This document shows, in pieces, positions 15,379 to 38,195 of a stretch of DNA of 38,581 nt. This DNA comes from a virus. The notes beneath the pieces were generated by a model. That model worked only from the letters and a program-made list of their open reading frames with translations, did not search any database and was not told where the DNA came from. A program made the translations under genes and the position numbers. The first letter of the stretch is position 1; each line of letters starts with the position of its first letter. The stretch is from the IMG/VR virus record IMGVR_UViG_3300010160_002247, positions 1-38,581 of that record; one strand, 5' to 3'.

Positions 15379-16434
15379 ATGAAACTTTGTTTATTAGGTG
15401 ATACTCATTTTGGTGTTAGGAATGACTCTAAAGCATTTCACGCATACTATGAGAAATTCTATAGTGAGGTATTTATGCCTTATTTGTTAGAACACAAGAT
15501 AGATACTGTAATTCAGTTGGGTGATCTATTTGATCGTAGAAAATATATTAACTTTAATTCTCTTGCAGAAGCAAGACGGTACTTCTTTGATCCATTAGAA
15601 GCAAACGGTATTAAACTTCTAACACTAATCGGCAATCATGATATTTTCTGGAAAGAAAGTCTTGATGTTAATTCGCCTGATCTATTATTAAAAGACTACG
15701 GTAATATTACAATCTATCAAGAGCCAGGTAAATTTGTATATGATAACATTACCTTTGACATTGTCCCGTGGATTTGTAAACAAAATGAATCAGATATTGC
15801 AACATTTATAGATCAAAGTTCTGCAGATTACTGTATTGGTCATTTTGAGATTGCAGGATTTCAAATGATGAAAGGTATCGACAATCATGAAGGCGTTGAC
15901 CGTAGTTACTTTAAACAATATAAACAAGTAATAAGTGGACATTTTCATACCAAATCATCTGAAGGCAATATCACATACTTAGGTACTCCTTATGAGTTAA
16001 CCTGGAATGATGAAAGTGATCCTAAAGGATTCTTTATATTTGACACTGAAACACATGGTATAGAATTTATACAAAATCCATATACAATTTTTACTAAGTT
16101 CTATTATGACGATGATAAATTTGATTCTGACACAATTGATGTATCTATTTTTGCCAGTCAACACGTTAAATTAGTTGTTGTTAAAAAGAAAGATTTTGTT
16201 AAATTTGAGAAGTTCATAGAACGAATCTATAAACAAGACCCATTAGAATTAAAAATTATTGAAGACTTTTCCGAATTTGAATCTGAAGCATTAGATGATT
16301 CTATTGATTTAGAAGATACTATGACTCTGTTATCTAATTATGTAGATAGCGTTGAGACTGATGTAGATAAAGAAAGACTCAAAACATTGCTAAAAACATT
16401 ATACGTTGAAGCACAACATTACGAACAAGCATGA
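15379..16434 (+). CDS. 47: Recombination nuclease subunit gp47 (SbcD/Mre11-like)
   Basis: Nuclease partner of gp46 that resects DNA ends for T4 recombination-dependent replication. The calcineurin-type phosphoesterase motifs are intact: GDTHFG (D8, H10), GDLFDRR (48-54), IGNHD (84-88), a GHFEIAG His near 155 and SGHFHTK near 191. The 351 residues compare with T4 gp47 at 339. It overlaps the gp46 start by 4 bases, as expected for a stoichiometric complex. A TTGACC, 17-base spacer, TATAAA sequence at 15896-15924 could be an internal promoter for gp46. Confidence 0.96.
   Translation: MKLCLLGDTHFGVRNDSKAFHAYYEKFYSEVFMPYLLEHKIDTVIQLGDLFDRRKYINFNSLAEARRYFFDPLEANGIKLLTLIGNHDIFWKESLDVNSPDLLLKDYGNITIYQEPGKFVYDNITFDIVPWICKQNESDIATFIDQSSADYCIGHFEIAGFQMMKGIDNHEGVDRSYFKQYKQVISGHFHTKSSEGNITYLGTPYELTWNDESDPKGFFIFDTETHGIEFIQNPYTIFTKFYYDDDKFDSDTIDVSIFASQHVKLVVVKKKDFVKFEKFIERIYKQDPLELKIIEDFSEFESEALDDSIDLEDTMTLLSNYVDSVETDVDKERLKTLLKTLYVEAQHYEQA
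15896..15924 (+). promoter_or_regulatory. Possible internal promoter in gene 47
   Basis: TTGACC, 17-base spacer, TATAAA: 10 of 12 consensus positions with the same spacing as the better promoters in the window. It lies about 500 bases upstream of gene 46. Weaker than the perfect copies and may be chance. Confidence 0.35.
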
Positions 16435-18143
16435 TTAGATTTACAAAGATCAGATGGAAAAACTTTCTTTCAACCGGCGGCCAATTTACGGAAATTGATT
16501 TTGAGAGTTCGCCATCAACTTTAATTGTCGGTGAAAACGGTGCAGGTAAAAGTACTATTCTCGATGCTATTTGTTTTGTATTGTTTAATAAACCTTTCAG
16601 GAATATTAACAAACCGCAATTAATGAATACAATCAATGGTAAAAATCTTATTGTTGAGGTTGAATTTAGTATTGGCAAGAAAGACTACAAAATTATTCGT
16701 GGAATGAAACCGGGTGTATTTGAAATATACTGCGATGGTGACATTCTTAATCAAGATGCAGCCGCAAAAGACTATCAGAAATATCTTGAAGAAGCAATTT
16801 TAAAATTAAATTATAAATCATTTACACAGATTGTTATACTTGGATCTGCTTCATTTACGCCTTTTATGCAATTGGCATTGGGTGTTAGACGTGAAATTAT
16901 TGAAGACATTTTGGATATACAAGTCTTTTCGGTAATGAATTCCGTGTTAAAGGATAAGTCTTCTGATTTAAAATCTAGAATAACTGACATTGAAACTGTT
17001 ATTGAAATAGGTAAAAACAAGGTTAAATTACAACAACAATATATTGCAACACTCGAAAGTGATAAGCAAAAGAAAGTAGACGATGTACAAAAGCGAATAT
17101 CTGAAACGAATGCAGAGATATCACAACTTAATGCAGGAATGTTGGAACAGCAAGAAAAAGAAACGGGTTGTAAATCCTCTATATCTGACGCCGATGAGAA
17201 GCGCAACAAGCGTACGGAAATGGGAGCTTTGCTTAGAAAGCTTTCCGAAAGAATTACTACTCAAGAAACAAGCATACAATTTTACCACGACAATGATGTT
17301 TGTCCAACGTGTAGCCAGAATCTTGACGAACATCTCAAAGGATCCGCAATCGAACTTCATACACATAAACGTGAAGAAGTCCAATCTGCGATTGAATCCC
17401 TTACCTCGCAACTTGAAGGTATTGAAACTAGACTTAATGAGATTGATGCGGTCGAAAAGAAAATCTCTGAACATAAAAGCAACATCATTACCTACAGTTC
17501 AAAAATCATTGCGGCGCAAAATTATATTCAAAAGTTACAAGCGGACCTGGCAGGCAACACTAATGATACGGCAAACATTGAGGATGAAACGGGTAAACTT
17601 AAAACCCTGGCCAAAGAAGTTGTAGGCGCAGCCGGAGAAAAGAGCAAATTATCGGAAGATAAACATTATTTAGATATTGCTGCAATATTATTAAAAGACA
17701 CAGGTATTAAAACAAAGATCATTAGACAATACTTACCTGTTATAAATAAATTAGTAAACAAGTATTTAACGGCAATGGATTTCTTTGTTCATTTTGAACT
17801 AGATGAATCCTTTAATGAAGTAATTAAATCTAGACACAGAGATGAGTTTAGTTATGCTTCATTTAGTGAAGGCGAAAAGCAAAGAATTGATTTAGCATTA
17901 TTGTTTACATGGCGTACTATTGCGAAGATGAAAAACAGTGCAAGTACAAACTTGTTATTGTTAGATGAAGTGTTTGATTCTTCATTGGATGCAAACGGTA
18001 CAGACTATGTTATGAATTTGTTAAATACTATAGGTGACGATACAAATGTATTTGTTATATCGCATAAAGGCGATCAATTAATAGATAAATTTAAGTCGGT
18101 TATTAAATTTCAAAAGTATCAAAATTTTAGTAGAATAGTATGA
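16431..18143 (+). CDS. 46: Recombination nuclease subunit gp46 (SbcC/Rad50-like ATPase)
   Basis: SMC-like ATPase that works with gp47. Residues 1-170 hold the N-lobe with Walker A GENGAGKS (34-41). Coiled-coil arms follow, split by the zinc hook CPTC (291-294). The C-lobe has the ABC signature FSEGEKQRIDLALL and Walker B LLLLDEVFDSSLD, then an H-loop VISHKGD. The 570-residue length is almost that of T4 gp46 (560). Start and stop both overlap neighbours by 4 bases. The exact TATAAATA at 17751 inside this gene is probably chance. Confidence 0.97.
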   Translation: MIRFTKIRWKNFLSTGGQFTEIDFESSPSTLIVGENGAGKSTILDAICFVLFNKPFRNINKPQLMNTINGKNLIVEVEFSIGKKDYKIIRGMKPGVFEIYCDGDILNQDAAAKDYQKYLEEAILKLNYKSFTQIVILGSASFTPFMQLALGVRREIIEDILDIQVFSVMNSVLKDKSSDLKSRITDIETVIEIGKNKVKLQQQYIATLESDKQKKVDDVQKRISETNAEISQLNAGMLEQQEKETGCKSSISDADEKRNKRTEMGALLRKLSERITTQETSIQFYHDNDVCPTCSQNLDEHLKGSAIELHTHKREEVQSAIESLTSQLEGIETRLNEIDAVEKKISEHKSNIITYSSKIIAAQNYIQKLQADLAGNTNDTANIEDETGKLKTLAKEVVGAAGEKSKLSEDKHYLDIAAILLKDTGIKTKIIRQYLPVINKLVNKYLTAMDFFVHFELDESFNEVIKSRHRDEFSYASFSEGEKQRIDLALLFTWRTIAKMKNSASTNLLLLDEVFDSSLDANGTDYVMNLLNTIGDDTNVFVISHKGDQLIDKFKSVIKFQKYQNFSRIV

Positions 18144-19934: not shown

Positions 19935-22064
19935 ATGGCACTAGCAAACTCAAAATCAGTACTCGCAAAGTTACTCGCACAAGAGAACATCACTGTCGAG
20001 CATCGCAAAACACAAACCGCATACTTTGATCCCAAGAATCGTGTTCTTGTTCTTCCAATCTGGAAAGACATGAGCACTGATCTTTATGACTTACTTGTAG
20101 GTCACGAAGTAGGTCATGCTTGGGAAACCCCTGCCGAGGGCTGGCACAATGCCCTTCAAGCACACAAGCGAGGTTTTAAATCTTATCTTAATGTAGTAGA
20201 AGATGCTCGTATTGAACGATGTATTAAGACCCGCTATCCTGGTCTGCGTTCATGTTTTTATAAAGCATATAGCGAATTAGCAGACAAAGATTTCTTTGGT
20301 ATTGCAGAACGTGAAATCTCAACACTTAATTTAATTGATCGTATCAATCTTCACTTCAAGATTGGTCCTTTCCTTGCGGTTCCTTTTAATACAGAAGAAC
20401 AATTCTATGTTAAACAAATAGAGAACCTTTCAAATTGGGATGATGTAGTCCGTGTTGCTACAGAATTGTATAATCGTCGCAAAGAAGAACTGGAAGAAGA
20501 ATACGAAGACAACAGACGTCGAGGTGGTCTCGGTGAGATTCAAGACTATGAAGAAGGCGATGAGTATAATGAATATGATTCTGAGTATAATCGTGAAGAA
20601 GATACAATGGCAGACGATGATGCTGGAGGTGTCGGTGCAGGTGGGGAACCAATCTTTGATCCGAAGTCATTGACGGATGAAGAATTCCGCAAGCGTGAAT
20701 CTGAATTAGTATCCGATGAAATCAAACCATATCGTTATGCTACATTGCCTTTAATTAATACTAAAGATTTTATTATACCTCACAAGAAACTTTATGCTGA
20801 AACAGATTGGCAAATTATTGATGACGACTACGGCGCAGCTGATCCAATGTTTGTTGAATATAATGTTCCTGCAGGTGACATATTATATTCGGAATACAAA
20901 CAGACAAACTCTAAATTTATTCAATATCTTGTAAAAGAATTTGAATTAAAACGTAATGCGGCACAATTTGCCAGAGCGCACGTTGCTAAAACAGGTGAGC
21001 TTGATATTGATAAAGTATTTGCTTACAAATTTAAGACAGATTTATTCAAGCGTGTTACTGTTGTTCCTGGTGGTAAGAATCATGGCATGGTAATGTTTAT
21101 TGATTGGTCTGGTTCAATGACTGATATTATCAAACAAACAATTGAACAGACTTTGGTACTTGCAGATTTCTGCAAGAAAGTAAATATCCCATTCCGAGTA
21201 TTTGCTTTTTCAGACTCAGACCAAAACAATAAGAATAAAGATATTCTTGCTATTAGAAAAACTAAATACTCACAACGCATTGGTGATTTATCATTAGAAA
21301 ATTATAGTACATATATGATGGAATTGTTATCTAATACTATGACAAGTTCGCAATATCATTATGCGCAGAAACGATTATTACAAGTTGGTCATGTATTTGG
21401 TCGTATTCATCGTAGACATTATGTCCCACATGGATGGAATTTAAGCGGCACTCCTTTAAATGAGGCATTGGTATTTGCCAATTATTATATTCCAGAATTT
21501 AAAGAAATGCATCGATTAGATATTGTAAATACAATTGTATTGACTGACGGTGAAGCAAATGAGACTGAAGAAATTATTGCGTCTGATGGTCGTCGTAGAC
21601 ATATGAATTCTGTATATTCAATTGGTTGGAAAGGTAAAGCAAATACTGTTATTACAGATAAACAAACTGGCAAAACCGGATTTGCTAAACCAGGTCAACC
21701 GTTAACAGCTGCTCTTTTAGACTTATTAAAGAATAGAACTGGAACTAATTTAATTGGATATTATATTCTAAGCGGTGTTTCTAAATATCGGATTAATGGA
21801 TTTATTCAGGGTCAAGGTATTATTAATGAAGATACTCAAAATATTATTCATAAAATAAAGAAAGAAAAGTTTTATGCGATTAACTCTTATGTTTATGATA
21901 AATATTTTCTGGTCAAATCAGACGATTTAAATATTAATGACGAAGAATTAAAGGTAAAATCAGATTCTTCTAAAAAGGATATTTTAAAATCATTTATGCA
22001 AAGTCAAAAATCAAAGATCGTGAACCGCGTACTTTTGAACAAGTTTATTGCAGAAATTGCTTGA
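19935..22064 (+). CDS. cobT: CobT-like protein: HExxH metalloprotease-like region plus VWA domain
   Basis: A 709-residue protein. The N-terminal region has a zincin-type HEVGH (57-61) followed by NVVEDARIERC (86-96), whose E/D could give the third metal ligand. A long acidic linker (about 175-245, Glu/Asp/Tyr/Gly-rich) precedes a C-terminal von Willebrand A domain with the MIDAS DWSGS (390-394) and a later LTDGEANE. This is the layout of CobT-like partners of MoxR/CobS ATPases. The next gene encodes that ATPase under a sister promoter. True CobT acts in cobalt chelation, but phage pairs lack CobN in this window, so a MoxR-VWA remodelling or proteolytic role is more likely (inference). Confidence 0.87.
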   Translation: MALANSKSVLAKLLAQENITVEHRKTQTAYFDPKNRVLVLPIWKDMSTDLYDLLVGHEVGHAWETPAEGWHNALQAHKRGFKSYLNVVEDARIERCIKTRYPGLRSCFYKAYSELADKDFFGIAEREISTLNLIDRINLHFKIGPFLAVPFNTEEQFYVKQIENLSNWDDVVRVATELYNRRKEELEEEYEDNRRRGGLGEIQDYEEGDEYNEYDSEYNREEDTMADDDAGGVGAGGEPIFDPKSLTDEEFRKRESELVSDEIKPYRYATLPLINTKDFIIPHKKLYAETDWQIIDDDYGAADPMFVEYNVPAGDILYSEYKQTNSKFIQYLVKEFELKRNAAQFARAHVAKTGELDIDKVFAYKFKTDLFKRVTVVPGGKNHGMVMFIDWSGSMTDIIKQTIEQTLVLADFCKKVNIPFRVFAFSDSDQNNKNKDILAIRKTKYSQRIGDLSLENYSTYMMELLSNTMTSSQYHYAQKRLLQVGHVFGRIHRRHYVPHGWNLSGTPLNEALVFANYYIPEFKEMHRLDIVNTIVLTDGEANETEEIIASDGRRRHMNSVYSIGWKGKANTVITDKQTGKTGFAKPGQPLTAALLDLLKNRTGTNLIGYYILSGVSKYRINGFIQGQGIINEDTQNIIHKIKKEKFYAINSYVYDKYFLVKSDDLNINDEELKVKSDSSKKDILKSFMQSQKSKIVNRVLLNKFIAEIA

Positions 22065-22122: not shown

Positions 22123-23301
22123 ATGAATTCTACTGACCTCCAGAAAAAACAGCTTGTATCTGATCTGATTCAAGCATTCGGCAAAACAGCATCCCGCAAA
22201 GATGTAATTGCATTCGTCAAGCAAAAAGACGTTAAGATGCCCAATTGGTTAATTAATGGCGCAACATATCGAGCAGCTCGTGGCCTAATTAATCTTGACG
22301 CATTTGGTAGTGATAAAGTGAACAACATCCCAGCAACCCCTGCTCCTGAGATTGAGGCATTGCCTGCATTACAAGCTCAGGTTGTACAACTCCGACAAAA
22401 ACGTATGGTATCAGAAGTAGAAGATTTGGTTCCTATTAAAGACACAAATTATGTACCATTTGGTTTTTATAAAGATCTAGAGTCAATTATTAAATCTAAA
22501 GTGTTTTATCCTGTATTCATTACTGGTCTTACTGGTAATGGTAAGACTACAATGGTCGAACAGGTTTGTTCTAAATTAAAGCGTGAGTGTGTTCGTGTTA
22601 ACGTATCAATCGAGACTGATGAGGATGATCTTGTAGGTGGTTCTACATTGATTGACGGTAACGTAACATTCCGAGAAGGTCCTGTTATTCTAGCTATGCG
22701 CCGTGGTGCTGTTTTGTTGATTGACGAAATTGATCGTGGTTCAAATAAATTGATGTGTATTCAGGGTATTCTTGAAGGCAAGCCATACTTCAATAAAAAG
22801 AATGGCGATGTAATTCATCCTGCTTCTGGGTTTACGGTTATTGCTACAGCAAATACTAAAGGTCAAGGTTCAGATAGCGGCAAGTATATTGCAGCACAGA
22901 TTCTTGACGAAGCATTTTTAGAGCGTTTCCCAATTACAGTAGAACAAGAATATCCTTCTGCTAAGGTTGAGCGTACTATTATTATGAACAACATGGAACA
23001 GCATAGTTGTGTGGATGAAGAATTTGCTGACAAACTTGTAACATGGGCTGAGGTTATTCGTAAAACATATCTTGAAGATGCGGTTGACGAATTGATTTCT
23101 ACTCGACGTCTTGTTCATATTGTAAAGGCATTCTCGATGTTCCGAGATCGTCAAAAGGCAATTGAACTTTGTGTTAACCGTTTTGATGCAGATACAAAGA
23201 ATGCGTTCTTGGATTTGTATAAGAAGATGGAAGCACCTGCAGAAGAACAAACAGTTGCACCGATTCAAGAAAACAATATGGATGAAGATATCCCATTCTA
23301 A
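22123..23301 (+). CDS. cobS: CobS/MoxR-type AAA+ ATPase with an SSB-like C-terminal tail
   Basis: A 392-residue AAA+ ATPase with Walker A GLTGNGKTT (135-143), Walker B VLLIDEID (197-204), sensor-1 VIATANT and an arginine-finger region EAFLERFP. Family members annotated cobS are common in T4-like marine phages and resemble MoxR ATPases that act with VWA proteins, such as its upstream neighbour. The N-terminal 100 residues include a small helical domain (FVKQKDVKMPNWLINGATYR). After residue 365 comes a flexible linker (APAEEQTVAPIQ) and the last residues are NNMDEDIPF, which closely match the end of bacterial SSB (MDFDDDIPF), a docking peptide for DNA-repair proteins. That makes a DNA-related role plausible and a cobalamin role less so. 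Confidence 0.92.
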   Translation: MNSTDLQKKQLVSDLIQAFGKTASRKDVIAFVKQKDVKMPNWLINGATYRAARGLINLDAFGSDKVNNIPATPAPEIEALPALQAQVVQLRQKRMVSEVEDLVPIKDTNYVPFGFYKDLESIIKSKVFYPVFITGLTGNGKTTMVEQVCSKLKRECVRVNVSIETDEDDLVGGSTLIDGNVTFREGPVILAMRRGAVLLIDEIDRGSNKLMCIQGILEGKPYFNKKNGDVIHPASGFTVIATANTKGQGSDSGKYIAAQILDEAFLERFPITVEQEYPSAKVERTIIMNNMEQHSCVDEEFADKLVTWAEVIRKTYLEDAVDELISTRRLVHIVKAFSMFRDRQKAIELCVNRFDADTKNAFLDLYKKMEAPAEEQTVAPIQENNMDEDIPF

Positions 23302-23397: not shown

Positions 23398-24405
23398 ATG
23401 AAGACAGCATTAATTACTGGCATCACAGGCCAAGACGGATCCTATCTTGCAGAACTATTACTCGAAAAGGGTTATATGGTTCATGGCATTATTAGACGTA
23501 GTTCGTCAATCAACACAGGTCGCATCGACCACATCTATAGTCATCCCAATTTAAAATTGCACTACGGTGACGTAACAGATTCATTGTCTATTATGAACAT
23601 ACTTAAGAAGTATGAGCCAGATGAAATCTATAATTTAGCAGCACAAAGTCATGTTAAAGTTTCTTTTGAAACACCTGAATATACTGCACAAGTTGATGCA
23701 TTGGGCACATTAAAGATCCTCGAATCAGTTAGATTGTTGAATTTAGAAAAGAAAACTAAAATCTATCAAGCATCCACATCAGAGCTTTATGGTCTAGTAC
23801 AAGAAATACCGCAAAAAGAAACAACCCCGTTTTACCCGCGCTCACCCTATGGCGTAGCTAAACTTTATGGATATTGGATTGTTAAAAATTATCGCGAGTC
23901 TTATAATATGTTTGCTTGTTCTGGCATCTTATTTAATCACGAATCTCCTCGTCGTGGACATAATTTTGTTACAAAGAAAATTGTAAATGGGATTGAAGCA
24001 GTAAGTGCAGGACGTCAAGAATGTTTATATTTGGGCAATATACATGCTAAACGAGATTGGGGTCATGCAAAAGACTATGTGAAGGCAATGTGGTTAATGT
24101 TGCAACAAGATATCCCCGACGATTTTGTTATTGCTACAGGTGAACAATATTCAGTAAAAGAATTTGTCGAACGATGCGCACCATTTTTTGGATTAAAAAT
24201 TCGATGGGAAGGCGCAGGCCTTAACGAAGTAGGTATTGACACTATAACCAATAAAATTGTTGTTCGTGTGGATGAAAAATATTTCCGCCCTGCAGAAGTT
24301 GAAACTTTATTAGGAGATTCTACAAAAGCTAGAAGTGTGCTGGGTTGGGTTCCTGAGCATTCTTTCGATGATCTTGTTCACGACATGTGTATGAATTTTA
24401 GTTGA
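23398..24405 (+). CDS. gmd: GDP-mannose 4,6-dehydratase
   Basis: Makes GDP-4-keto-6-deoxy-D-mannose from GDP-mannose using NADP. The 335-residue protein has [17 protein letters not shown] at 6-22, [15 protein letters not shown] (33-47), ASTSELYG (125-132), catalytic Y151-x3-K155 in SPYGVAKLY, and the [16 protein letters not shown] block. All are diagnostic for GMD, with the catalytic Thr/Glu/Tyr/Lys in place. It is first in the cluster behind the late promoter. The next two enzymes use its product. Confidence 0.98.
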
Positions 24406-24412
24406 GGATAAT

Positions 24413-25348
24413 ATGGAAAAAAATAGTAAAATATTTGTTGCGGGTCATAATGGATTGGTAGGTTCAGCAATTGTACGAAAATTAAAATCCGAGGGATATA
24501 ATGATTTAATTCTTAGATCTAAAGCAGAATTGGATTTGAGAGATCAACTGGCAGTTAAAAAATTCTTTAGTTTAGCAAAACCAGATTATGTTTTTTTAGC
24601 TGCAGCAAAGGTTGGCGGCATTAATTGGAACTGGACTAATCCTGGTGAATTTATTTATGATAATCTGCAAATACAAACTAATGTTATTGATGCAGCATAT
24701 CGCAATGCCTGCAAAAAATTATTATTTTTAGGTTCTGCTTGTATATATCCTAAGGTTGTTCCTCAACCTATTAAAGAAGAATATTTGTTAACAGCACCAC
24801 TTGAACCTACAAATGAAGGATATGCTTTAGCAAAAATTACAGGTTTGCGTATGTGTGAATATTATAGACGCCAATATGGGTTTAATGCTATCAGTTTAAT
24901 GCCTGCTAATCTATATGGACCTAATGATAATTTTATTCCAGAACACGGCCATGTAATTCCTGGTATTATAACTAAGTTATATAATGCTATGCAAAAGGGT
25001 GAAAAGAGTATTGAATGCTGGGGCGATGGCACACCTACAAGGGAATTCTTATATGTAGATGATCTTGCGGATGCTTGCTTCTGGACAATGCAAAATTATG
25101 ATAAAGCCGAATTTATTAATGTGGGTAGCAATGAAGAACTTACAATTAGAGATCTTGCTGAAAAATTAAAAGACGCAATGGGTTTTAAAGGTGATATTAT
25201 TTGGAATACAGATAAACCAAATGGCACACCTAGACGCAAAATGGATAACAGCAAATTAAAAGCACTTGGCTGGTCTGCAGATGTAACCTTTGATGAGGGT
25301 CTAAAGCGGACTATTGAATGGTATAAAAAGCAAAAAGGTATGATATGA
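24413..25348 (+). CDS. fcl: GDP-L-fucose synthase-like epimerase/reductase (Fcl or ColC role)
   Basis: Epimerises and reduces GDP-4-keto-6-deoxymannose to GDP-L-fucose. The 311 residues carry the Fcl blocks: VAGHNGLVGSAIVRKL (9-24), AAAKVGGI, FLGSACIYPK with S108 and C110, EPTNEGYALAK with Y137 and K141, and GHVIPG with H180, so the triad and the Cys/His acid-base pair are kept. The usual GSSC is GSAC here, a mild change. Because the next gene is ColD-like, this enzyme might act on the 3-deoxy product as ColC does to give GDP-colitose, but the sequence looks closer to Fcl. GAGGA ribosome site; overlaps the next gene by 4 bases. Confidence 0.95.
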   Translation: MEKNSKIFVAGHNGLVGSAIVRKLKSEGYNDLILRSKAELDLRDQLAVKKFFSLAKPDYVFLAAAKVGGINWNWTNPGEFIYDNLQIQTNVIDAAYRNACKKLLFLGSACIYPKVVPQPIKEEYLLTAPLEPTNEGYALAKITGLRMCEYYRRQYGFNAISLMPANLYGPNDNFIPEHGHVIPGIITKLYNAMQKGEKSIECWGDGTPTREFLYVDDLADACFWTMQNYDKAEFINVGSNEELTIRDLAEKLKDAMGFKGDIIWNTDKPNGTPRRKMDNSKLKALGWSADVTFDEGLKRTIEWYKKQKGMI

Positions 25349-26514
25349 GATGGCCTTTAATGGGTGAGACAATCACCTTTACTGATAGATTAAAAATGGC
25401 ACACTTTGCTTTAACAGCAAAGAAATTTACCTTTGGCGAAAAAGTAAAACAATTTGAAAACGAATGGAGCGACTGGCTAGGTGCAAAACATTCGTTATAT
25501 GTATCCAGCGGAAGTACCGCAAACTTCTTGTTGGTTGCTGCTATTAAAGAATTATATAAGTTAAAAGAAGGCGACAAAGTATTGTTACCTGCCTGTACCT
25601 GGATGACCAATGTGGCACCTATTATGCAACTTGGCCTTACTCCTGTATTCTGCGATATCAATTTAGATAATTTTAGTTTCGATGTAGAAGAAGCCAAATT
25701 AATCGCAATTAAACACGAAATTAAAGCAGTGTTTATTACACACCTATTAGGGTTTTCTGCAGACAATGAAGCGATTAAACGCATATTTCCTCGAGCATTA
25801 ATTATAGATGATGTATGCGAATCACATGGATGCCAATCACCATACGGTGAAAGGCGCGGCGCAAATAGTTTAGGTGCAACATTCAGTTTCTATTTTGGAC
25901 ATCATATGTCTACAGTTGAGGGCGGTATGGTTTCTACTAATAATACTAAACTATATGACCTAATGAAGATGAAGCGCAGTCATGGAATGGCAAGAGAATC
26001 TCTTAATTTTGCAGATTACGCCAATAAGAATCCAAACATTGATAAACAATTTCTATTTGTTACTGATGGATATAATTTTAGAAACCATGAAATTTGTGCA
26101 GTGCTTGGTATATCGCAATTAAAGCGATTGGATAAAATGATTGAAATTAGAAACAACAATCATAAATTATTTGTAGATATTATTGACAAATATCCCAATC
26201 TGTTTTATAATATTAAAAATCCCAAAACAATTAGTAGTTTCTGTTTACCATTCATTTGTAAATCTAATGAGATTATGTTAGCAATGAAAGATACCTTTAC
26301 CCAACACGGTATTGAATACAGACCAATTGTTGCGGGTAATCTATTAGCACAACCGTTCCTTAAAGATTATACTATTGAATCTAATAAGAAGCGAACCAAT
26401 GCAGATATTCTTCATACCCAAGGTGTGTACGTTGGTAATAACCATTTTGTTACAGACAAAGATATGAACTTTTTAAACAAAGTAGTCGGAGAAATTAATG
26501 AAAAATTTAGGTGA
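25345..26514 (+). CDS. colD: ColD-like GDP-4-keto-6-deoxymannose 3-dehydratase (PLP, His in place of Lys)
   Basis: A DegT/DnrJ-fold PLP enzyme of 389 residues. Ordinary family members are sugar aminotransferases with a PLP-binding Lys. Here that site reads FYFGHHMSTVEGG, with H186/H187 and no Lys, as in ColD (active-site His188) and the RfbH/E1 3-dehydratases. The N-terminal block FTFGEKVKQFENEW ... VSSGSTANFLLVAA (28-65) and the C-terminal GIEYRPIVAGN also match my memory of E. coli ColD, and the length is nearly equal (388). ColD removes the 3-hydroxyl of GDP-4-keto-6-deoxymannose, the Gmd product encoded two genes upstream. The RfbH-type iron-sulphur cysteines are not apparent. The likely product route is GDP-colitose (3,6-dideoxy-L-galactose). 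Confidence 0.85.
   Translation: MRWPLMGETITFTDRLKMAHFALTAKKFTFGEKVKQFENEWSDWLGAKHSLYVSSGSTANFLLVAAIKELYKLKEGDKVLLPACTWMTNVAPIMQLGLTPVFCDINLDNFSFDVEEAKLIAIKHEIKAVFITHLLGFSADNEAIKRIFPRALIIDDVCESHGCQSPYGERRGANSLGATFSFYFGHHMSTVEGGMVSTNNTKLYDLMKMKRSHGMARESLNFADYANKNPNIDKQFLFVTDGYNFRNHEICAVLGISQLKRLDKMIEIRNNNHKLFVDIIDKYPNLFYNIKNPKTISSFCLPFICKSNEIMLAMKDTFTQHGIEYRPIVAGNLLAQPFLKDYTIESNKKRTNADILHTQGVYVGNNHFVTDKDMNFLNKVVGEINEKFR
26183..26211 (+). promoter_or_regulatory. Perfect sigma70-type promoter inside colD
   Basis: TTGACA (26183-26188), a 17-base spacer and TATAAT (26206-26211). It reads in frame as Ile-Asp-Lys ... Tyr-Asn, the same phase as the copy in galE. It would transcribe the genes from 26498 onward independently of the late promoter. 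Confidence 0.55.
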
Positions 26515-26857
26515 GAGTATTGAGGATATTATAAAAAGAACAGTCGACGATGTTTTAGACAACACTCGAGATTATGGTCTACCAGATTCTAATTATATTG
26601 CAACAGATAACCTCGGTGAAGTAATTGAAAAATTAGCAATCATCCATATTAGAATGTGGATGTTAGAGGATGCGATACAAGCAGCAACTTCTGATACAGA
26701 GATTGCAGAACTAAAACGTAAATGTGATATTTGCTTTAAAGTCAAACGTCCAAAATATGTTCAAGCAATTAACGCATTGGTTGACGATGCAATTGTGAAT
26801 AACAAGTCTTTGAGAGAAGATTCAGTAAAATTATACAAAGGTGTTAATAATGAATAA
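26498..26857 (+). CDS. Small helical protein of the glycan cluster (DUF4254-like impression)
   Basis: A 119-residue, mainly helical protein that overlaps the ColD-like gene by 17 bases, with GGAG in the upstream gene as its ribosome site. The segment LGEVIEKLAIIHIRMWMLEDAI (about 40-60) has a His/Trp/Glu-Asp spacing reminiscent of DUF4254 proteins found in lipopolysaccharide clusters. Residues KRKCDICFKVKRPKY contain a CxxC pair but no second pair, so a zinc finger is unlikely. Function unknown. Confidence 0.7.
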   Translation: MKNLGESIEDIIKRTVDDVLDNTRDYGLPDSNYIATDNLGEVIEKLAIIHIRMWMLEDAIQAATSDTEIAELKRKCDICFKVKRPKYVQAINALVDDAIVNNKSLREDSVKLYKGVNNE

Positions 26858-27767
26858 AATTGTTTTCTTTAATCACTTCCATAAAGGCGATCTTCATACG
26901 CATAAGGAATTTATTCGTCATATTCAATCTGAACTACCCAATGTAGCATTTGAATATCTGCATAATAATGCAGCAAAATTGACCGCTGAACTTGATATTC
27001 CTTTGATAGGCGCACCGTCTGATTTAGATAATAAAACTCCTTTTTACTTAGATGAAGATGCGTTGTATATTAATACGTGGGTTGGATGCAATTGGGATAT
27101 ATTCTGTAAGTATGGTGGTATCAATATGAATACGTTATACGAGCAATGGGAAAAAATCGTAGAACAAATCAATGAAGTATTTGAAACAAGTATTAAATTA
27201 CATAAAGAAAAAGAACAATACTTACCAAGAATTGCTTATAATGCTTTAAGCACTGCGGGTGTAGATAATTATGTTAATTCTACAATAGGCGTTAAAAAAA
27301 TATTGTTATGTAATAATGTGCCTCAATCAAATCAATCTTTTAGTTCTGAGATGAGAGAATATATTTTGCCTTTTGCAGAAATGTATCCAGATACACATTT
27401 TATTTGTACCAATAAATTTGATACCGATGGAAATAATAATATCTTTTTTACTGGCGATATAATTGGTCCTGTTCAAGATGGAGATTTACAAGAAATTTCT
27501 TATTTAAGTACTTACTGTGATGTTATTGTAGGAAAGAACTCGGGTCCATATGTATTCTGTGAGACTTATGATAATTATATGGATGATAATAAAACATTCT
27601 TATCATTTAATACTAAGCATTTAGACTATGAAGATATACACGAAACTATGTCACGTGATTTAAAAATCAACTGTAATTATATGGCAATACCTATTTTCAA
27701 TAATAAAGAATTGACGGACAAAGATCACGAGAATATCATGGCAGCTCTTAATGAGGCGCTTGCATGA
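26850..27767 (+). CDS. Putative GT-B-like glycan enzyme, unknown specificity
   Basis: A 305-residue protein; ATG 26850 is chosen because AAAGGTG lies 6 bases upstream, although the frame is open 9 bases earlier. It starts MNKIVFFNHFHKGDLHTHKEF. It later has GVKKILLCNNVPQSNQSF and a C-terminal part with TYCDVIVGKNSGPYVFCETYDN, which resembles the nucleotide-sugar-binding end of heptosyltransferase-like GT-B proteins (VGxxSGP). No signal peptide. It overlaps the previous and next genes by 8 and 4 bases. The GT call rests on fold impression and context only. Confidence 0.6.
   Translation: MNKIVFFNHFHKGDLHTHKEFIRHIQSELPNVAFEYLHNNAAKLTAELDIPLIGAPSDLDNKTPFYLDEDALYINTWVGCNWDIFCKYGGINMNTLYEQWEKIVEQINEVFETSIKLHKEKEQYLPRIAYNALSTAGVDNYVNSTIGVKKILLCNNVPQSNQSFSSEMREYILPFAEMYPDTHFICTNKFDTDGNNNIFFTGDIIGPVQDGDLQEISYLSTYCDVIVGKNSGPYVFCETYDNYMDDNKTFLSFNTKHLDYEDIHETMSRDLKINCNYMAIPIFNNKELTDKDHENIMAALNEALA
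27711..27739 (+). promoter_or_regulatory. Possible promoter before the GT10 gene
   Basis: TTGACG, 17-base spacer, TATCAT (10 of 12), ending 24 bases before the GT10 start. The spacing equals that of the other promoters, but the match is weaker. Confidence 0.35.
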
Positions 27768-28642
27768 AAAAGTTGTCTATTGGATTTACCGATACGCACG
27801 AGCATCTAGCTGCGTTTTTTATATACCTGCTAGGTACTCGGTATGAGGTAGAGATTATCGACATTAGAAAAGGAACACCTGATATTCTTTTATTCGGTGA
27901 CGATAATTTTGGTAAACGCAATTTAGATTTCTCCAGAAAAGATTGTATCAAGTTATTCTATACTGGAGAAAATCGTAGACCAGAAAACTTTGATTGTGAT
28001 TATGCTATCAGTTTCGATCACAACTTTGAACCTTGGCATTATAGATTGCCCCTGTATGTAGTCTATATGTGGGCATTAGAACATATACATGAAACAAAAT
28101 TTGATTACAATTATATCTTTAATCCCGAGATTAAAGAGAAAACAGACTTTTGTTCTTTTGTAGTATCTAATCCTAATTGTTCTGAGCGCAATGAATTCTT
28201 TAAACAGCTACACGCAGAAAAGCATGTTGATAGTGCAGGAAAATTATATAATAACACATCTGCAAATTTAGTAGGTGAAGCAGCTAAGATTGAATTTCTT
28301 TCTACACGAAAATTCAATATTTGTTTTGAACCTTATTCACATCCCGGGTATGTAACGGAGAAAATTCTACACGCATTTTATGCAGGTACAGTTCCTATTT
28401 ACTGGGGAAGTGAAACAATAAGTTCTGATTTTAATCCCGACGCATTTGTTAATGTGCATGACTTTGATAGCTATTATGATGTAATTAAACATCTCGCATA
28501 TTTAGATAGTAACAAAGAAGCATACGATGCAATGGTAAATGCTCCTAAGTTTAGAAACGGAATTCCTCCTTCATACATAATGCTCGACAATTTCCTAAAT
28601 TGGTTTGATGCTGTTGTTTATAATAAAATCCTTAAACGATGA
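27764..28642 (+). CDS. GT10 family fucosyltransferase
   Basis: Alpha-1,3/4-fucosyltransferase family enzyme that transfers fucose (or a related GDP-sugar) to a glycan. The 292 residues show the two GT10 signatures: LFYTGENRRPENFDCDYAIS at about 64-83, and KFNICFEPYSHPGYVTEK (183-200) running into IYWGSETISSDFNPDAFVN (212-230). The acceptor-side Glu and the GDP-binding Arg/Lys/Tyr/Glu cluster appear present. There is no membrane anchor, so it is a cytosolic, bacterial-type enzyme. gmd, fcl and the ColD-like gene upstream provide the GDP-sugar, making a complete synthesis-and-transfer set. Confidence 0.93.
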   Translation: MKKLSIGFTDTHEHLAAFFIYLLGTRYEVEIIDIRKGTPDILLFGDDNFGKRNLDFSRKDCIKLFYTGENRRPENFDCDYAISFDHNFEPWHYRLPLYVVYMWALEHIHETKFDYNYIFNPEIKEKTDFCSFVVSNPNCSERNEFFKQLHAEKHVDSAGKLYNNTSANLVGEAAKIEFLSTRKFNICFEPYSHPGYVTEKILHAFYAGTVPIYWGSETISSDFNPDAFVNVHDFDSYYDVIKHLAYLDSNKEAYDAMVNAPKFRNGIPPSYIMLDNFLNWFDAVVYNKILKR

Positions 28643-29352
28643 AAATACAGACATTTATTTTCAACTGGCGCGGCCAGTATGAAAAGACAAAAGAAAAGCA
28701 AAAGCAACTGAGTGCCATTGGGGTTGTTCCTGTCGTTATTAATAGTGACGACAATCACCGTGAGGAAGATCCCAATTGGCACAACATTGGCGAGGAAAGT
28801 TATTTTACCGCACAATTTTTAAAAGCATTAGAATTGTTTGATAGCGATGCTATGTTCCATATTCAGGCCGATGCTTCATATAGTAATTGGGCTGAAATTT
28901 ATTCTGGTGCTGAAGAATGTTTCGATACTTATAATTGGGGCATTTATGCGCCGAATGTAGATTATACTTGGTATAGTGCTGAAAGAACTAATCTTACATC
29001 TTTTGATTTAGATGAACCTCATTTTAAAATGGTTGCTAATACAGACTGTACTTGTTGGTTCATTCATAAAGATATAATCAATGAAGCAAATAACAGAGGT
29101 GTAGATTTTGCACCGTACAAGATGGGGTGGAGCTTTGATATCGTTTATACTGCTTTAGGATATCTTAATAAAAGACCAGTTATCCGAGATTACCGGTATA
29201 CTATTGACCATCCGCCCGGAACTAATTATAATAAGGATCAAGCTGAAAAAGAAATGTATACGTTATATGCATCATTACCCACCGATATTCAGCACGCATT
29301 CCGAGCAATAAAACAAGACAAAGAACAATTAGCAACATATTATGCAGATTGA
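28639..29352 (+). CDS. Putative GT-A glycosyltransferase
   Basis: A 237-residue protein on an ATGA overlap with the GT10 gene. It begins IQTFIFNWRGQYEKTKEKQKQL and continues to DSDAMFHIQADASYSNW, where QADA (about 76-79) is a DxD-like metal site. It then has NTDCTCWFIHKDII and MGWSFDIVYTALGYLN, the usual position of the catalytic acidic residue. It resembles short GT2-like enzymes in phage glycan clusters. A sigma70-type promoter overlaps its 3' end. Confidence 0.7.
   Translation: MKIQTFIFNWRGQYEKTKEKQKQLSAIGVVPVVINSDDNHREEDPNWHNIGEESYFTAQFLKALELFDSDAMFHIQADASYSNWAEIYSGAEECFDTYNWGIYAPNVDYTWYSAERTNLTSFDLDEPHFKMVANTDCTCWFIHKDIINEANNRGVDFAPYKMGWSFDIVYTALGYLNKRPVIRDYRYTIDHPPGTNYNKDQAEKEMYTLYASLPTDIQHAFRAIKQDKEQLATYYAD
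29204..29232 (+). promoter_or_regulatory. Sigma70-type promoter inside the GT-A gene
   Basis: TTGACC (29204-29209), a 17-base spacer and TATAAT (29227-29232), the same hexamers and spacing as the intergenic promoters at 7045 and 19885. It lies 136 bases before the next gene, which has no good ribosome site or upstream overlap. Confidence 0.6.
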
Positions 29353-29368
29353 TTTTGTGCAGTGACCT

Positions 29369-30109
29369 ATGCCTTTGATACATTCTAATAGATCAACAAT
29401 TGATCCAAATAAAAAATTAATTGTATATACTCATATCGGTATAGGGGATATTATATGTACTTACGCTATAGTTAAAACAATTATAGAAGAATCTTATGGG
29501 GATATAATTATACCTTGCAGACAAATATTTTTAGATTCTATAAATTATCTTTATAAAGATGAACCTCGTTTATCAATTTTACCTATAACAGATACAAACA
29601 TTATAAATATTGAGATGGGAGAAGTTTATTCCTACGCAGAACAAAACAATTTAGAAATACTTCAAATTGGTTTTGGCAATCTTAAACAACCATTTCATTA
29701 TAACCAATTTTTTGATCAAGTAAATATCCCTTACAGACGAAGCTGGGAAATATTCCCAGATTTTAAATCGTCGGATCATTCCAAACAATTATACAATTCT
29801 CTTTCTTTGGACGATAAAGACTACATACTTGAGATTAGTACTAACACAAATGGAACATTTGATTTAAAAATTGATTCTGATTTGCCTAAAGTTAAGGTGT
29901 TCAAATCTAATTTTGGGTCTGGTATATTTGATTGGATAGATGTTATTATAAATGCTAAAGAAATACATACTGTAGGAACAGGCGTATTTCATTTAATAGA
30001 TAGAATTGAAAATTTTAATAAAGATTGTAAATTATACTTTCATAATGTACGACACGACTTTCATACTATAGATACAAATTGGAATTGGAACTTAATTGAT
30101 TATGAATAA
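29369..30109 (+). CDS. Putative GT9/heptosyltransferase-like protein
   Basis: A 246-residue protein whose N-terminus LIVYTHIGIGDIICTYAIVK (18-37) is the glycine-loop strand-helix of heptosyltransferase-type GT-B enzymes. The C-terminal half has DWIDVIINAKEIHTVGTGVFHLIDRI, matching the donor site. It is shorter than complete GT9 enzymes (about 350 residues), so it may be a reduced form. No convincing ribosome site is visible before ATG 29369. It follows a 16-base gap and overlaps the kinase gene by 8 bases. A-ending codons dominate. Confidence 0.6.
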   Translation: MPLIHSNRSTIDPNKKLIVYTHIGIGDIICTYAIVKTIIEESYGDIIIPCRQIFLDSINYLYKDEPRLSILPITDTNIINIEMGEVYSYAEQNNLEILQIGFGNLKQPFHYNQFFDQVNIPYRRSWEIFPDFKSSDHSKQLYNSLSLDDKDYILEISTNTNGTFDLKIDSDLPKVKVFKSNFGSGIFDWIDVIINAKEIHTVGTGVFHLIDRIENFNKDCKLYFHNVRHDFHTIDTNWNWNLIDYE

Positions 30110-31028
30110 AAACCATGTGGTTATCGGTGATCTAATATTCGACAAATTCATCTACGGCAATGCTAATAGAATATCAGCGGAGGCACCTACTTTAGTATTA
30201 GATGTAGAAAAAGAAATACATATGATTGGCGGCGCGTATAATGTTGCTGCACATCTAGCATCATTGGACCACAATTGTGTATTTTTATCCACAGTAGGTC
30301 AAGATTTTAACAAAGTAATAATTGGATTTCAAGATAAATTTGATCCAGCAATCACAGGAAATATTATAACAGAAGATAATAGAGCAACATCTGTTAAAAC
30401 TAGATTAATATCTGAGTATAAAAATACACATCTATTAAGATATGATATAGAAACAACTAGAGATATTACTGAAGAAACAGTAACCTCAATTGTTTCGTAT
30501 GTTGAAAGTATTGAACACATCGATGACATACTATTAATAGATTATAAAAAGGGTGTTATCACTAAAGATCTAGCAACTAGAATTATAGACATTGCTAATA
30601 AAAGAAATATCCCTGTTTATGTAGATACTAAAAAAGATGATCTACAAATTTTTAGAGGATGTACTGTAATTAAGCCAAACAAATTTGAGTTTGAAAAAAT
30701 TAAATTAAGATATGCGCCCGATTCTAATATAGAAGATGCGTGTAAAATAATCTGTGATACTTTAAATATTCACCAAATTGTTATTACTGCAGGCGATGAA
30801 GGAATATATGCGTATAATAACGATGATGGGTTGACGCATACCGCCGCTGAAATAGTTGAGATTAAAGAGCTCAGTGGTGCGGGTGATTCGGTATTAGCGG
30901 TATTAAGTTATTGTGTGTCTGAAGGACATTCATTTATAAACAGTATTAAATGGGCAAATAGATTGGCCGCAAAATTTGTATCATCCGGAATACAATATAG
31001 AGCAAAAAAAGAAGATTTATTTAAATAA
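30102..31028 (+). CDS. PfkB/ribokinase-family sugar kinase, HldE kinase domain-like
   Basis: A 308-residue PfkB-fold kinase. MIGGAYNVAAHLASL near 40-54 is the substrate-binding glycine motif. The block YVDTKKDDLQIFRGCTVIKPN resembles the heptose-7-phosphate kinase domain of HldE/RfaE. SGAGDSVLA (about 258-266) is the anion hole with catalytic D262. It lacks the C-terminal nucleotidyltransferase domain of HldE, so it would only phosphorylate. ATG 30102 is preferred over an upstream TTG at 30096. With the dehydrogenase and thiamine enzyme that follow, it may build an unusual sugar. Confidence 0.85.
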   Translation: MNKNHVVIGDLIFDKFIYGNANRISAEAPTLVLDVEKEIHMIGGAYNVAAHLASLDHNCVFLSTVGQDFNKVIIGFQDKFDPAITGNIITEDNRATSVKTRLISEYKNTHLLRYDIETTRDITEETVTSIVSYVESIEHIDDILLIDYKKGVITKDLATRIIDIANKRNIPVYVDTKKDDLQIFRGCTVIKPNKFEFEKIKLRYAPDSNIEDACKIICDTLNIHQIVITAGDEGIYAYNNDDGLTHTAAEIVEIKELSGAGDSVLAVLSYCVSEGHSFINSIKWANRLAAKFVSSGIQYRAKKEDLFK

Positions 31029-31036
31029 GAGGAAAT

Positions 31037-32050
31037 ATGGAAAATTTTTTAGCAGCAGTTCTAACAGAACATTATAAGCCATTAACATTAGAATCATTTA
31101 AAGCAGAGGTTCCGACTGACGGTCAAGTGCTTGTTGAAATGATTTCTGCTGGATTATGTGGCGCACAAATAAATGAAATTGATGCTGTTAAAGGCCAAGA
31201 CAATTATATGCCTCATTTTATGGGACACGAAGGATTTGGATTTGTTACAGGCGTGGGTGACCGTGTAACTAAAGTTAAAAAGGGCGACTATGTAGTATTA
31301 CACTGGAGAAAAGGAAGCGGGTGCGATTGCTTTGGTGCCAAATATTTTTCTAAGTTAGGTATTGTGGGTTCGGGTCCTGTTACTACATTTGCAGAACAAA
31401 CAATTGTATCTGAAAATCGAGTAACCAAAGTAGATTATAAACCTAGTTTGGATAACCTATATCCGTTAATGGGATGCGCATTATCTACAGCATACGGTAT
31501 TGTTAAAAATATTAAGAAAAATTCTACTGTAACCATTTCAGGCGCAGGCGGATTAGGATTAACTATAGCTTTCTGGCTAAAAGTGTTTTATAATATAACA
31601 CCCGTGATGATAGATAAGTTCGAGAATAAACGAGAATTTGCTGAAACATTTGGTGCTAAATTCTATACGTTAGATGATTTTAAGAATTTGGATAAGACTG
31701 ATTATTGTATTGATACTACAGGAAAAGTAGATGTAATATCTAAGATGTTTTCCCAAGTTAAAAAAGGTGGTTCTTTAATACTTGTAGGCCAACCTAGAGT
31801 AGGTGAGAGCTTAGTATTAGAAAATGCATTATCAATTTTTGATGGCATTAAAATTTTCAGTTCAGATGGTGGTGATTTTGATCCCGATAGAGATTTATCG
31901 GATATAGTGTTTCATGTAGATAAAAATAAAGAACTTGCAACAAAACTTATCACACACGTAATTAAATTGGAAGAAATCAACGAGGGCTTTACTAAAATGA
32001 GAAACGGTGAAGCCGGTAGAGTTATTATTAATTTTAAGGAGAACAAATAA
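31037..32050 (+). CDS. Medium-chain (zinc-type) alcohol/sugar dehydrogenase
   Basis: A 337-residue MDR-family oxidoreductase. The GroES-like half has GLCGAQINEI with the catalytic-zinc Cys, FMGHEGFGFV (His-Glu) and GDYVVLHW. The Rossmann half has TISGAGGLGLTIAFWL (NAD(P) binding) followed by PVMIDKFENKREFAETFGAKF. The four-Cys structural-zinc loop is reduced to GSGCDCFG. It is close to the sugar/polyol dehydrogenases found in polysaccharide clusters. AGAGGAAA ribosome site. The stop overlaps the next start (TAATG), so it is coupled to the thiamine enzyme. Confidence 0.87.
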   Translation: MENFLAAVLTEHYKPLTLESFKAEVPTDGQVLVEMISAGLCGAQINEIDAVKGQDNYMPHFMGHEGFGFVTGVGDRVTKVKKGDYVVLHWRKGSGCDCFGAKYFSKLGIVGSGPVTTFAEQTIVSENRVTKVDYKPSLDNLYPLMGCALSTAYGIVKNIKKNSTVTISGAGGLGLTIAFWLKVFYNITPVMIDKFENKREFAETFGAKFYTLDDFKNLDKTDYCIDTTGKVDVISKMFSQVKKGGSLILVGQPRVGESLVLENALSIFDGIKIFSSDGGDFDPDRDLSDIVFHVDKNKELATKLITHVIKLEEINEGFTKMRNGEAGRVIINFKENK

Positions 32051-33270
32051 TGAGAAAAGAATGGACAGCGCAAGAGCTTATAGCGTTTGAAGATAGAATT
32101 GGTGAATTATATTTAGATAATCAATTACCATTCCTTTTTCATTTATCCGGCGGCAATGAGCAACAACTAATTGATATCTTTAAAGATATTAAAGAAGGTG
32201 ATTATGTTATCTCTAATCATAGAAGTCATTATCATGCATTGTTACACGGAATTCCTCCAGATGTAATTGAGGATAGAATTTTAAATGGTCGTAGTATGTT
32301 TATCTATGATCGGGGTCGTAACTTCTTCTGTTCTGCTATTATTGGCGGAACACCCGCAATTGCTGCAGGCATTGCATGGGCATTAAAGAAAAAAGGATCT
32401 GATAAAAAAGTATGGTGCTTTATTGGAGATGGCACAGAAGATAATGGACACACGTATGAAGCAGTTCGGTATGTGGATGGATTCGATCTGCCTTGTACTT
32501 TTATTGTTGAGAACAATGATAGATCAGTCGAAACAACTAACGTACAACGATGGGGCACTAAAGCTGATTACGAATGGAACTCACCTTCAGTAATGAAATA
32601 CAAATATGATATTACATATCCTCATGCCCGCAAACCTGGTATGATTGATTTATCTAAAGCAGTTAAAAAGACTGATGACGAATACTTTCCCCGTTTGGCA
32701 GAAGTTTTATACCCAGAAAATTTAAAGGGTGTTACTAATTATGTACCTGGGTTGAGTTATAAAGATGCCGCTAATCAGGTAATGACTGAGTTAGGCCAAG
32801 ATGGTGCAGTGTTCATTGGCTACAACGTACATAATTCACCCGGCGGTAACGCAATGGGCACACTTAAAAATGTTCCCGACGATCAAAAATTGGAAACACC
32901 TGTAGCAGAAAATCTAATGGCAGGTCTTGCAATTGGCATGGGATTTGAAGGATTTAAACCCGTTCTATATTTTGAACGGCATGACTTTATATTAGTTGCA
33001 ATGGATGCTATTGTTAACCATATTGATAAGATTGAAAGAATCTCCCACGGCGAATATACAGTTCCTGTTATTATTAGAGCAGTTACTGCAGATGCCGGCC
33101 CGTTCTACTCAGGAATTACACATTCGCAAGACTTTACAGATATGTTACGCACAGCTGTTAGCTTCCCTGTATACGATCCTGTAACCGGAGAAGATCTAGT
33201 ACTGGCATTTAAGAAAGCACAACATAGTAGTCGCCCTGCAATTATTATTGAGAGAAAATCTAGATATTAA
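32050..33270 (+). CDS. Compact thiamine-diphosphate enzyme (transketolase / E1-like, both domains fused)
   Basis: A 406-residue protein that carries both halves of the thiamine-diphosphate fold. The PP domain has HYHALLHGI (60-68), RGRNFFCSAIIGGTPAIAAG and the classic GDG (126-128)-X26-NN (155-156) metal/cofactor motif. The Pyr domain has LETPVAENLMAGLAIGMG with E287 as cofactor-activating Glu and VAMDAIVNHIDKI. Transketolase and E1 alpha-beta pairs total 600-700 residues, so this is a reduced fused form without the C-terminal domain. Likely role: making or extending a keto-sugar precursor for the glycan cluster, rather than central metabolism (inference). GGAG ribosome site. Confidence 0.87.
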   Translation: MRKEWTAQELIAFEDRIGELYLDNQLPFLFHLSGGNEQQLIDIFKDIKEGDYVISNHRSHYHALLHGIPPDVIEDRILNGRSMFIYDRGRNFFCSAIIGGTPAIAAGIAWALKKKGSDKKVWCFIGDGTEDNGHTYEAVRYVDGFDLPCTFIVENNDRSVETTNVQRWGTKADYEWNSPSVMKYKYDITYPHARKPGMIDLSKAVKKTDDEYFPRLAEVLYPENLKGVTNYVPGLSYKDAANQVMTELGQDGAVFIGYNVHNSPGGNAMGTLKNVPDDQKLETPVAENLMAGLAIGMGFEGFKPVLYFERHDFILVAMDAIVNHIDKIERISHGEYTVPVIIRAVTADAGPFYSGITHSQDFTDMLRTAVSFPVYDPVTGEDLVLAFKKAQHSSRPAIIIERKSRY

Positions 33271-33271
33271 T

Positions 33272-35351: not shown

Positions 35352-35352
35352 A

Positions 35353-37497: not shown

Positions 37498-37538
37498 ATA
37501 TTTTTACGTGAACAAAATTGCAATTTAGGAGATATATA

Positions 37539-38195
37539 ATGCAAATTAGTAATGAAACAATCCAAATTTTGAAGAACTTTGCTACGGTAAACAGTAATAT
37601 TCTTATTCGAAAAGGCAAGACTTTGTCTACAATTAGCACAGCAAAGAACATCTTTGCAAAGGCAACAGTAGCAGAAGACTTCCCAGTTGAGGTTGCGGTG
37701 TATGATTTAAACTCTTTGTTGGCATTGTTGACATTGATGGAGAATCAAGATGTTGAGTTTGGCGAGAAGTCATTGACTATCTCTAAGAACAATGGTAAGT
37801 TTGAGTACTTCTATTCTAACGCAAACGTAATTGTTGCGGCGCCTGATAAATCTATTGAGATTGATAATCACTTTCAATTCCAATTGTCAGCAGAGGATGT
37901 TAATATGATTATGAAGGCAGCTAATATTACAGCGGCGCCAACAATCTCTGTTACTGCTAAAGACGGTACAGTTGTATTGACTATCGGTGATAAGAAAAAC
38001 GATACTGCAAATACTTATAAGAAAACAATTGGTGCAAGCGATGAGTCTTTCGAGTGCCATATGTCTGTAGACAATTTTAAAATTGTACCAGATGCTTATA
38101 CAGTAACAGTATCTAAAAAGAAATTGTTCCACTTCCAACATTCTACAAAAGTAATTGAATATTTTATAGCAATGGAACCCGATTCGGTGGTATAA
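37539..38195 (+). CDS. 45: Sliding clamp gp45
   Basis: Trimeric DNA polymerase processivity clamp and, in T4, the activator of late transcription. The 218-residue protein starts at ATG 37539 after TTAGGAGAT; the frame is open upstream to 37518. It is close to T4 gp45 (228) in length. Characteristic parts are the N-terminal MQISNETIQILKNFATVNSN, FAKATVAEDFPVEVAVYDLN, LLALLTLMEN and the two-domain repeat of beta-alpha-beta motifs ending KVIEYFIAMEPDS. In this phage it is the likely docking partner for proteins with SLExLFA tails at 10960 and 12243. The stop overlaps the next start (TAATG). Confidence 0.95.
   Translation: MQISNETIQILKNFATVNSNILIRKGKTLSTISTAKNIFAKATVAEDFPVEVAVYDLNSLLALLTLMENQDVEFGEKSLTISKNNGKFEYFYSNANVIVAAPDKSIEIDNHFQFQLSAEDVNMIMKAANITAAPTISVTAKDGTVVLTIGDKKNDTANTYKKTIGASDESFECHMSVDNFKIVPDAYTVTVSKKKLFHFQHSTKVIEYFIAMEPDSVV

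Follow-up and report, generated by a model that had tools for sequence, protein, structure and literature searches.

A putative SSB-type C-terminal docking peptide on the MoxR-family AAA+ ATPase annotated as CobS in a T4-like phage

Results

The ATPase lies beside a zincin-VWA gene in the replication cluster

The window, as we call the whole stretch of DNA analysed here, comprises 38,581 nucleotides (IMG/VR record IMGVR_UViG_3300010160_002247). It belongs to a T4-like myovirus, and PHROGs matches confirm the SbcD-like recombination nuclease subunit gp47 (15379..16434, + strand; phrog_100), the SbcC-like subunit gp46 (16431..18143, +; phrog_77) and the sliding clamp gp45 (37518..38195, +; phrog_223). 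The gene under study is an open reading frame of 392 codons on the + strand (22123..23301), starting with ATG and closed by a TAA stop at 23299..23301. Its translation, together with Pfam, PHROGs and Foldseek, identifies a MoxR/CbbQ-NorQ-type AAA+ ATPase of phrog_249, which is called CobS in annotated relatives. Just upstream, at 19935..22064 (+), PHROGs, alignment and Foldseek place a 709-residue zincin-VWA protein, the phrog_459 “peptidase”, which we refer to as the partner. A sister contig whose CobS is identical to that of the window encodes gp32.

Annotated cyanophages share the order gp47, gp46, peptidase, cobS, gp45, gp44, gp62, regA with few insertions. The window keeps this order from gp47 to gp45, but with an island before gp45. 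The island is long (23398-37452, +), carries many sugar-nucleotide and glycosyltransferase-like genes and separates cobS from gp45, which adjoin closely in cyanophages. The cobS/zincin-VWA pair is thus located in the gp47-gp46-...-gp45 replication cluster, and this setting points to DNA processing rather than to vitamin B12. A distant CobS-like ATPase of an unrelated phage, Salmonella phage SSU5, stands beside a second “porphyrin” biosynthetic gene and just upstream of the DNA polymerase III alpha gene, which again ties such ATPases to replication.

The protein is a MoxR-type ATPase rather than a CobS by family score

Phage cobS is commonly interpreted as an auxiliary gene for vitamin B12. It has been reported in the cyanomyovirus core genome (PMC3037559). 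We looked at the domains of the window protein in turn. Residues 1-62 (22123..22308, +) were modelled by AlphaFold2 with pLDDT values mostly of 80-95, and their predicted topology H-E-H-H-E-E (DSSP) suggests a winged-helix-like domain; the Pfam search of this domain returned nothing over the cut-off. A disordered linker (residues 63-100; 22309..22422, +; pLDDT mostly <50) leads to the AAA+ module with its C-terminal lid (residues 101-370; 22423..23232, +), which is delimited by invariant columns, the AlphaFold2 model and Foldseek. In the alignment of 32 relatives, Walker A (GLTGNGKT), Walker B (LLIDE) and the arginine motifs of this module are invariant. A Pro/Gln/Glu-rich linker (23233..23277, +) follows, with a pLDDT of about 50 and high entropy across relatives; in most tail-bearing relatives 17-32 residues separate the last lid motif from the C-terminus.

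Pfam matched AAA_5 with 59.5 bits (cut-off 22) and CbbQ_C with 29.3 bits (cut-off 20.6), and the match to phrog_249 had an E-value of 2.4e-111. With the AlphaFold2 model as query, the top Foldseek match was CbbQ2 (6l1q; E 1e-19, 25% identity), followed by NorQ chains (9qh*), both of NorQ alone and of NorQ complexed with the VWA domain of NorD. Against the NCBIfam CobS equivalog TIGR01650 the protein scored only 82 bits, far below the cut-off of 558.55, yet PD_CobS was its best NCBIfam match. Judged by family score and predicted fold, the window protein is not a CobS but a MoxR AAA+ ATPase of the CbbQ/NorQ type, a designation that should replace the misleading name CobS. We retain “CobS” below as a label for the family. 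Assignment to an anti-phage defence family was considered and rejected, as the matches were weak and partial.

The partner carries both a zincin site and a complete MIDAS. HExxH is present in 68 of its 70 relatives, and in a 22-member alignment the invariant residues include H57, E58, H61 and E89 of the zincin site and D390, S392, S394, T506 and D538 of the MIDAS; the C-terminus (..FIxxIA) is conserved as well. Searches against Pfam and NCBIfam, CobT models included, matched no family, while the top Foldseek match of the predicted fold was the NorD VWA domain (9qhe_G), a weak one (E 1.5e-4). The partner looks like a NorD/CbbO-type adaptor carrying a protease site. By analogy, the two phage proteins, if they do pair, resemble the NorQ/NorD AAA+/VWA machine, extended by a zincin module.

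The ATPase ends in an SSB-Ct-like peptide

At its C-terminus the ATPase reads ...YKKMEAPAEEQTVAPIQENNMDEDIPF*, i.e. ENNMDEDIPF followed by TAA. The last seven residues, MDEDIPF (23278..23298, +), form a putative SSB-Ct-like docking peptide, identified by translation and conservation. The original prediction had described a Pro/Gln/Glu-rich linker and an NNMDEDIPF end of SSB type; the translated open reading frame bears out both residues and coordinates, and the tip matches the C-terminal peptide of SSB residue by residue. A terminal Phe with its free carboxylate is preceded by Pro, and the acidic and aliphatic residues DEDI occupy -6 to -3. The last 20 residues have a pLDDT of about 50, that is, they are disordered, and a disordered linker thus leads up to the tip. 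Moreover, the tips seen across the family (DEDIPF, DDEIPF, EEVPF, EEMPF and DDAPF) are paralleled by those of genuine SSBs (DDEIPF, EEVPF, SEEMPF, EEAPF and EDIPF).

SSB-Ct pockets recognise the carboxylate of the C-terminal Phe together with acidic residues (PMC5872125), and for binding to four E. coli SSB partners the SSB tip peptide suffices, with no need for the linker (PMC7145534). The literature searched, which is not the whole literature, yielded no report of a tail of this kind on a phage protein other than an SSB.

The tail is conserved in close relatives and patchy across the family

An IMG/VR scan yielded 35 CobS relatives and a wider scan 80 more, with homologues counted by BLASTP; removing near-copies at 97% identity in the core left 95 non-redundant members. 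All 20 closest relatives (62-100% identical) end in PF, with the tips DEDIPF, DDEIPF, EDEIPF, NEEIPF, SDEIPF or VDDAPF, whereas the linker before them varies in length and sequence. The tail was likewise found in 11 of the 12 rows of the supported clade to which the window belongs.

A terminal F was found in 49 of the 95 members, a terminal PF in 33 and [DE][IVLMA]PF in 28. The PF positions are fixed by the way the set of 33 was selected, and the independent evidence comes from -3 to -5: I or V stands at -3 in 25 of the 33, and an acidic residue (D or E) occupies -4 in 91% and -5 in 73% of them. Beyond -5 there is a sharp increase in variability, which from -6 on is near the level of the linker. 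By comparison, none of 812 other distinct open reading frames of at least 150 aa on the same contigs ends in PF; the scan gave 817 with five PF endings, all five of which proved to lie in CobS homologues. The difference is highly significant (Fisher p ~1e-30, shared ancestry ignored), and in three sister contigs (~580 open reading frames) CobS is the sole one with a PF ending.

Synonymous variation is seen in the I, P and F codons (CCA, CCT and CCG; TTC and TTT under PF). On the tree, the PF state changes about 12 times, 10 of these changes being forced by supported branches, compared with 24.6 times when labels are shuffled. Two relatives, L119 and L114, carry about 80-100 extra C-terminal residues. 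L119 keeps DKEDIPF after this different, longer C-terminal region, and its sister L114 ends in NNAPF.

Judged from these comparisons, the tail is more than chance and is kept by selection in close relatives. Its distribution over the family is patchy, with PF missing in 62 of the 95 non-redundant members, so that conservation does not extend to the family as a whole. Since about two thirds of the wider family lack it, the tail is a lineage-specific add-on, and the core function of the machine does not need it.

Tail absence does not track the SSBs of cyanobacterial hosts

Of 14 cyanophage or marine single-cell records, 11 have no PF tail. The three that end in PF, S-WAM2 and S-H9-1 (NADAPF) and S-RIM32 (DNDNSPF), do so without the canonical [DE][IV], and the CobS of the SAR11 phage HTVC008M ends tail-less in EEETPSV. 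We then compared these with the 32 cyanobacterial main SSBs recovered by our filter. All 27 picocyanobacterial ones, which represent the Cyanobium family plus one similar genome, end in PF, mostly as [DE][DE][IV]PF, and those of five other cyanobacteria end in EF. Cyanobacterial genomes (L252-L314) were seen to hold two SSB paralogues, the short main SSB and a longer, divergent one whose C-terminus reads DEIPF or DDIPF; the second ends in IPF in 12 of 12 cases. Our search for literature on cyanobacterial SSB tails found none.

A match to the host SSB was considered as the reason why some phages carry the tail, and found no support: picocyanobacterial SSBs end in [DE][DE][IV]PF, yet most cyanophage CobS proteins are tail-less, so absence of the tail does not track absence of host targets. 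psbA was absent from all tail-bearing uncultured contigs tested, which hints at non-cyanobacterial hosts for these phages.

The tail differs from the gp32 and clamp-docking tails of the same phages

We next asked which proteins such a tail might address. In these phages gp32 ends in ..SLSYFAKLASDD, and the gp32-type pattern ..DDDDxSLSYFxxLAxxD does not occur in CobS; gp32 was accordingly set aside as a model for the CobS tail. A search of 13 sister contigs for an SSB-fold protein (PF00436) found none, and hence no phage-encoded SSB fold with DIPF there. The homologues of gp43, assigned by length and by eye from their sequence, end in ATLEGLFS and STLEDFFG. CobS, ending in DEDIPF, departs from the clamp-type pattern [ST]LE.[LF]F. 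read from gp43, and docking of its tail on the sliding clamp was rejected on this ground. Given that the gp32 tail differs, that the clamp tails differ and that no SSB fold was found, host SSB-interacting proteins are the likeliest candidate partners of the CobS tail.

The gp43-type C-terminal motif recurs on two other proteins of the window: a glycosyltransferase-like protein (9599-10960, +) ending in SSLESLFA, and a phrog_10773 protein, TGT/DpdA-like by eye (10957-12243, +), ending in VSLEDLFA. To judge by sequence, these tails probably dock DNA- or base-modifying enzymes on the sliding clamp. The T4 glucosyltransferase and gp45 offer a comparable case of clamp docking by a modifying enzyme.

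Discussion

A possible role for the tail

Starting from what is directly observed (the motif and its conservation, the class of AAA+ ATPase, the active-site and MIDAS residues of the partner and the replication-cluster setting), we consider it slightly favoured that an SSB-Ct-type tail docks host SSB-interacting proteins on an AAA+/VWA/zincin machine, which would recruit or remove them. The tail would be a genuine SSB-Ct-type short linear docking peptide, borne C-terminally by a ring-forming phage ATPase of the MoxR AAA+ family. This ring would act with the neighbouring zincin-VWA protein, as NorQ does with NorD and CbbQ with CbbO. If it is a hexamer, six tails would presumably lie on the lid side, the face that holds the VWA partner in NorQD, and each could fit the SSB-Ct pocket of host RecO, PriA, RecQ, ExoI, DnaG, chi and the like. 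A host protein brought to the ring in this way might be remodelled, stripped, or passed to the metallopeptidase site of the partner; alternatively, the tail-bound host protein might hold the machine at ssDNA and forks. Against all this, T4-like phages supply replication proteins of their own, and it is not obvious why they should need host SSB partners.

A stronger version, which we regard as doubtful, is that the ring mimics the host SSB hub: several DIPF tails would serve as bait to capture host repair and restart enzymes, which the ring would unfold, cleave or re-assign to phage DNA.

Alternative explanations

The tail could instead dock the phage's own zincin-VWA partner, at the MIDAS or the N-terminal domain. 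The MIDAS of the partner is complete, MIDAS sites bind acidic ligands in other systems, and the partner gene is next door to cobS in most loci and elsewhere in the genome in others. Presence of the partner is nevertheless not coupled to the tail (it was found in 34 of the 48 loci with a tail and in 49 of the 64 without one), and a dependence of the tail on the partner is not supported for this reason. In NorQD, moreover, docking uses a VWA finger and the partner's own C-terminus rather than an AAA+ tail (PMC13036017), and the phage partner has a conserved C-terminus of its own. MIDAS binding would account for the acidic residues but not for the fixed PF. On balance, we think docking on the partner unlikely.

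Two further explanations strike us as more improbable still, and to a similar degree. The tail may merely fill host SSB-Ct pockets and so weaken SSB-dependent repair and restart of the host, the AAA+ activity being unrelated. The same motif evidence speaks for this, and a multi-tail ring would be expected to bind avidly; a small free peptide protein would do for the purpose, however, and the tail sits on an ATPase with conserved catalytic residues and a conserved partner. Or the tail may bind another phage protein with an SSB-Ct-like pocket, or the nearby-encoded clamp gp45. cobS adjoins gp45 in cyanophages, and some non-PF tails of the family (..EDLF, ..DIF, ..DLDF) lean this way, whereas the tails of gp43 and of the two window proteins (SLESLFA and SLEDLFA) differ from that of CobS.

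That the tail is a chance or neutral feature inherited in one clade seems very improbable. Many relatives lack it and the family often has acidic tails of low complexity, but the contrast of 28 of 95 with 0 of 812 in the background, the restriction of conservation to the last five residues, the synonymous turnover and the occurrence in many separate branches all argue otherwise. Least credible of all is the annotated role, in which a true CobS would enhance B12 synthesis and the tail would be irrelevant: PD_CobS is the best NCBIfam match, the name is used in annotated cyanophages and the suggestion is reported in PMC2984593, but 82 bits stand against a cut-off of 558.6, the partner matches no CobT model of Pfam or NCBIfam, the gene lies in the replication cluster and the closest solved folds are CbbQ and NorQ.

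Scope and significance

For the original prediction, this means partial support. Its view that the ATPase is unrelated to vitamin B12 agrees with the family score, and the terminal DIPF, whose conservation it proposed to check, is kept in close relatives; it fails in about two thirds of the wider family, in HTVC008M and in most cyanophages. In the proposed comparison with phage and host SSB tails, phage gp32 showed a different tail, and picocyanobacterial SSBs a matching one that does not track the tail-bearing phages. Borrowing of SSB-binding host proteins is therefore a reasonable inference for the lineage of the window, and falls short as a general explanation of phage CobS.

The sequence evidence recasts phage “cobS” as a NorQ-like remodelling ATPase that stands with a VWA-zincin protein in the replication cluster. 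Where a lineage bears the tail, this provides a testable handle on the clients of the ATPase, namely whatever binds SSB-Ct. Should docking of host SSB-interacting proteins prove true, the phage would have mounted a copy of the host's SSB hub on a machine driven by ATP, and a DNA-processing story would replace the metabolic one.

Comparison with known systems

The aerobic cobaltochelatase subunit CobS is likewise a MoxR-type AAA+ protein, and the family score to it is weak; the phage ATPase falls below the equivalog cut-off and has a neighbour without a CobT match. The Rubisco activase CbbQ/CbbO supplies the best single PDB match (6l1q), and its CbbQ_C domain is found in the phage ATPase, which differs in having no Rubisco link and in its extra N-terminal domain and C-terminal tail. 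NorQ/NorD, a MoxR AAA+/VWA pair, inserts iron into nitric oxide reductase. The phage proteins share with it the fold of the AAA+ module (TM ~0.85 on the target), a partner whose best Foldseek match is the NorD VWA domain, the MIDAS and a conserved partner C-terminus. In contrast, identity is only about 24%, the winged-helix-like N-terminus and the SSB-Ct-like tail belong to the phage ATPase alone, and the phage partner has an N-terminal zincin site. The cyanomyovirus “CobS” (phrog_249, T4-GC 150) is of the same family, with the same phrog_459 neighbour (T4-GC 146) and the same gp46-to-gp45 position, but the PF tail is missing in most cyanophage members. With the C-terminal tip of bacterial SSB (DDDIPF), finally, the tail shares its residues, their distance from the C-terminus and a disordered linker before them, although its carrier is an AAA+ ATPase without an OB fold and not a DNA-binding tetramer.
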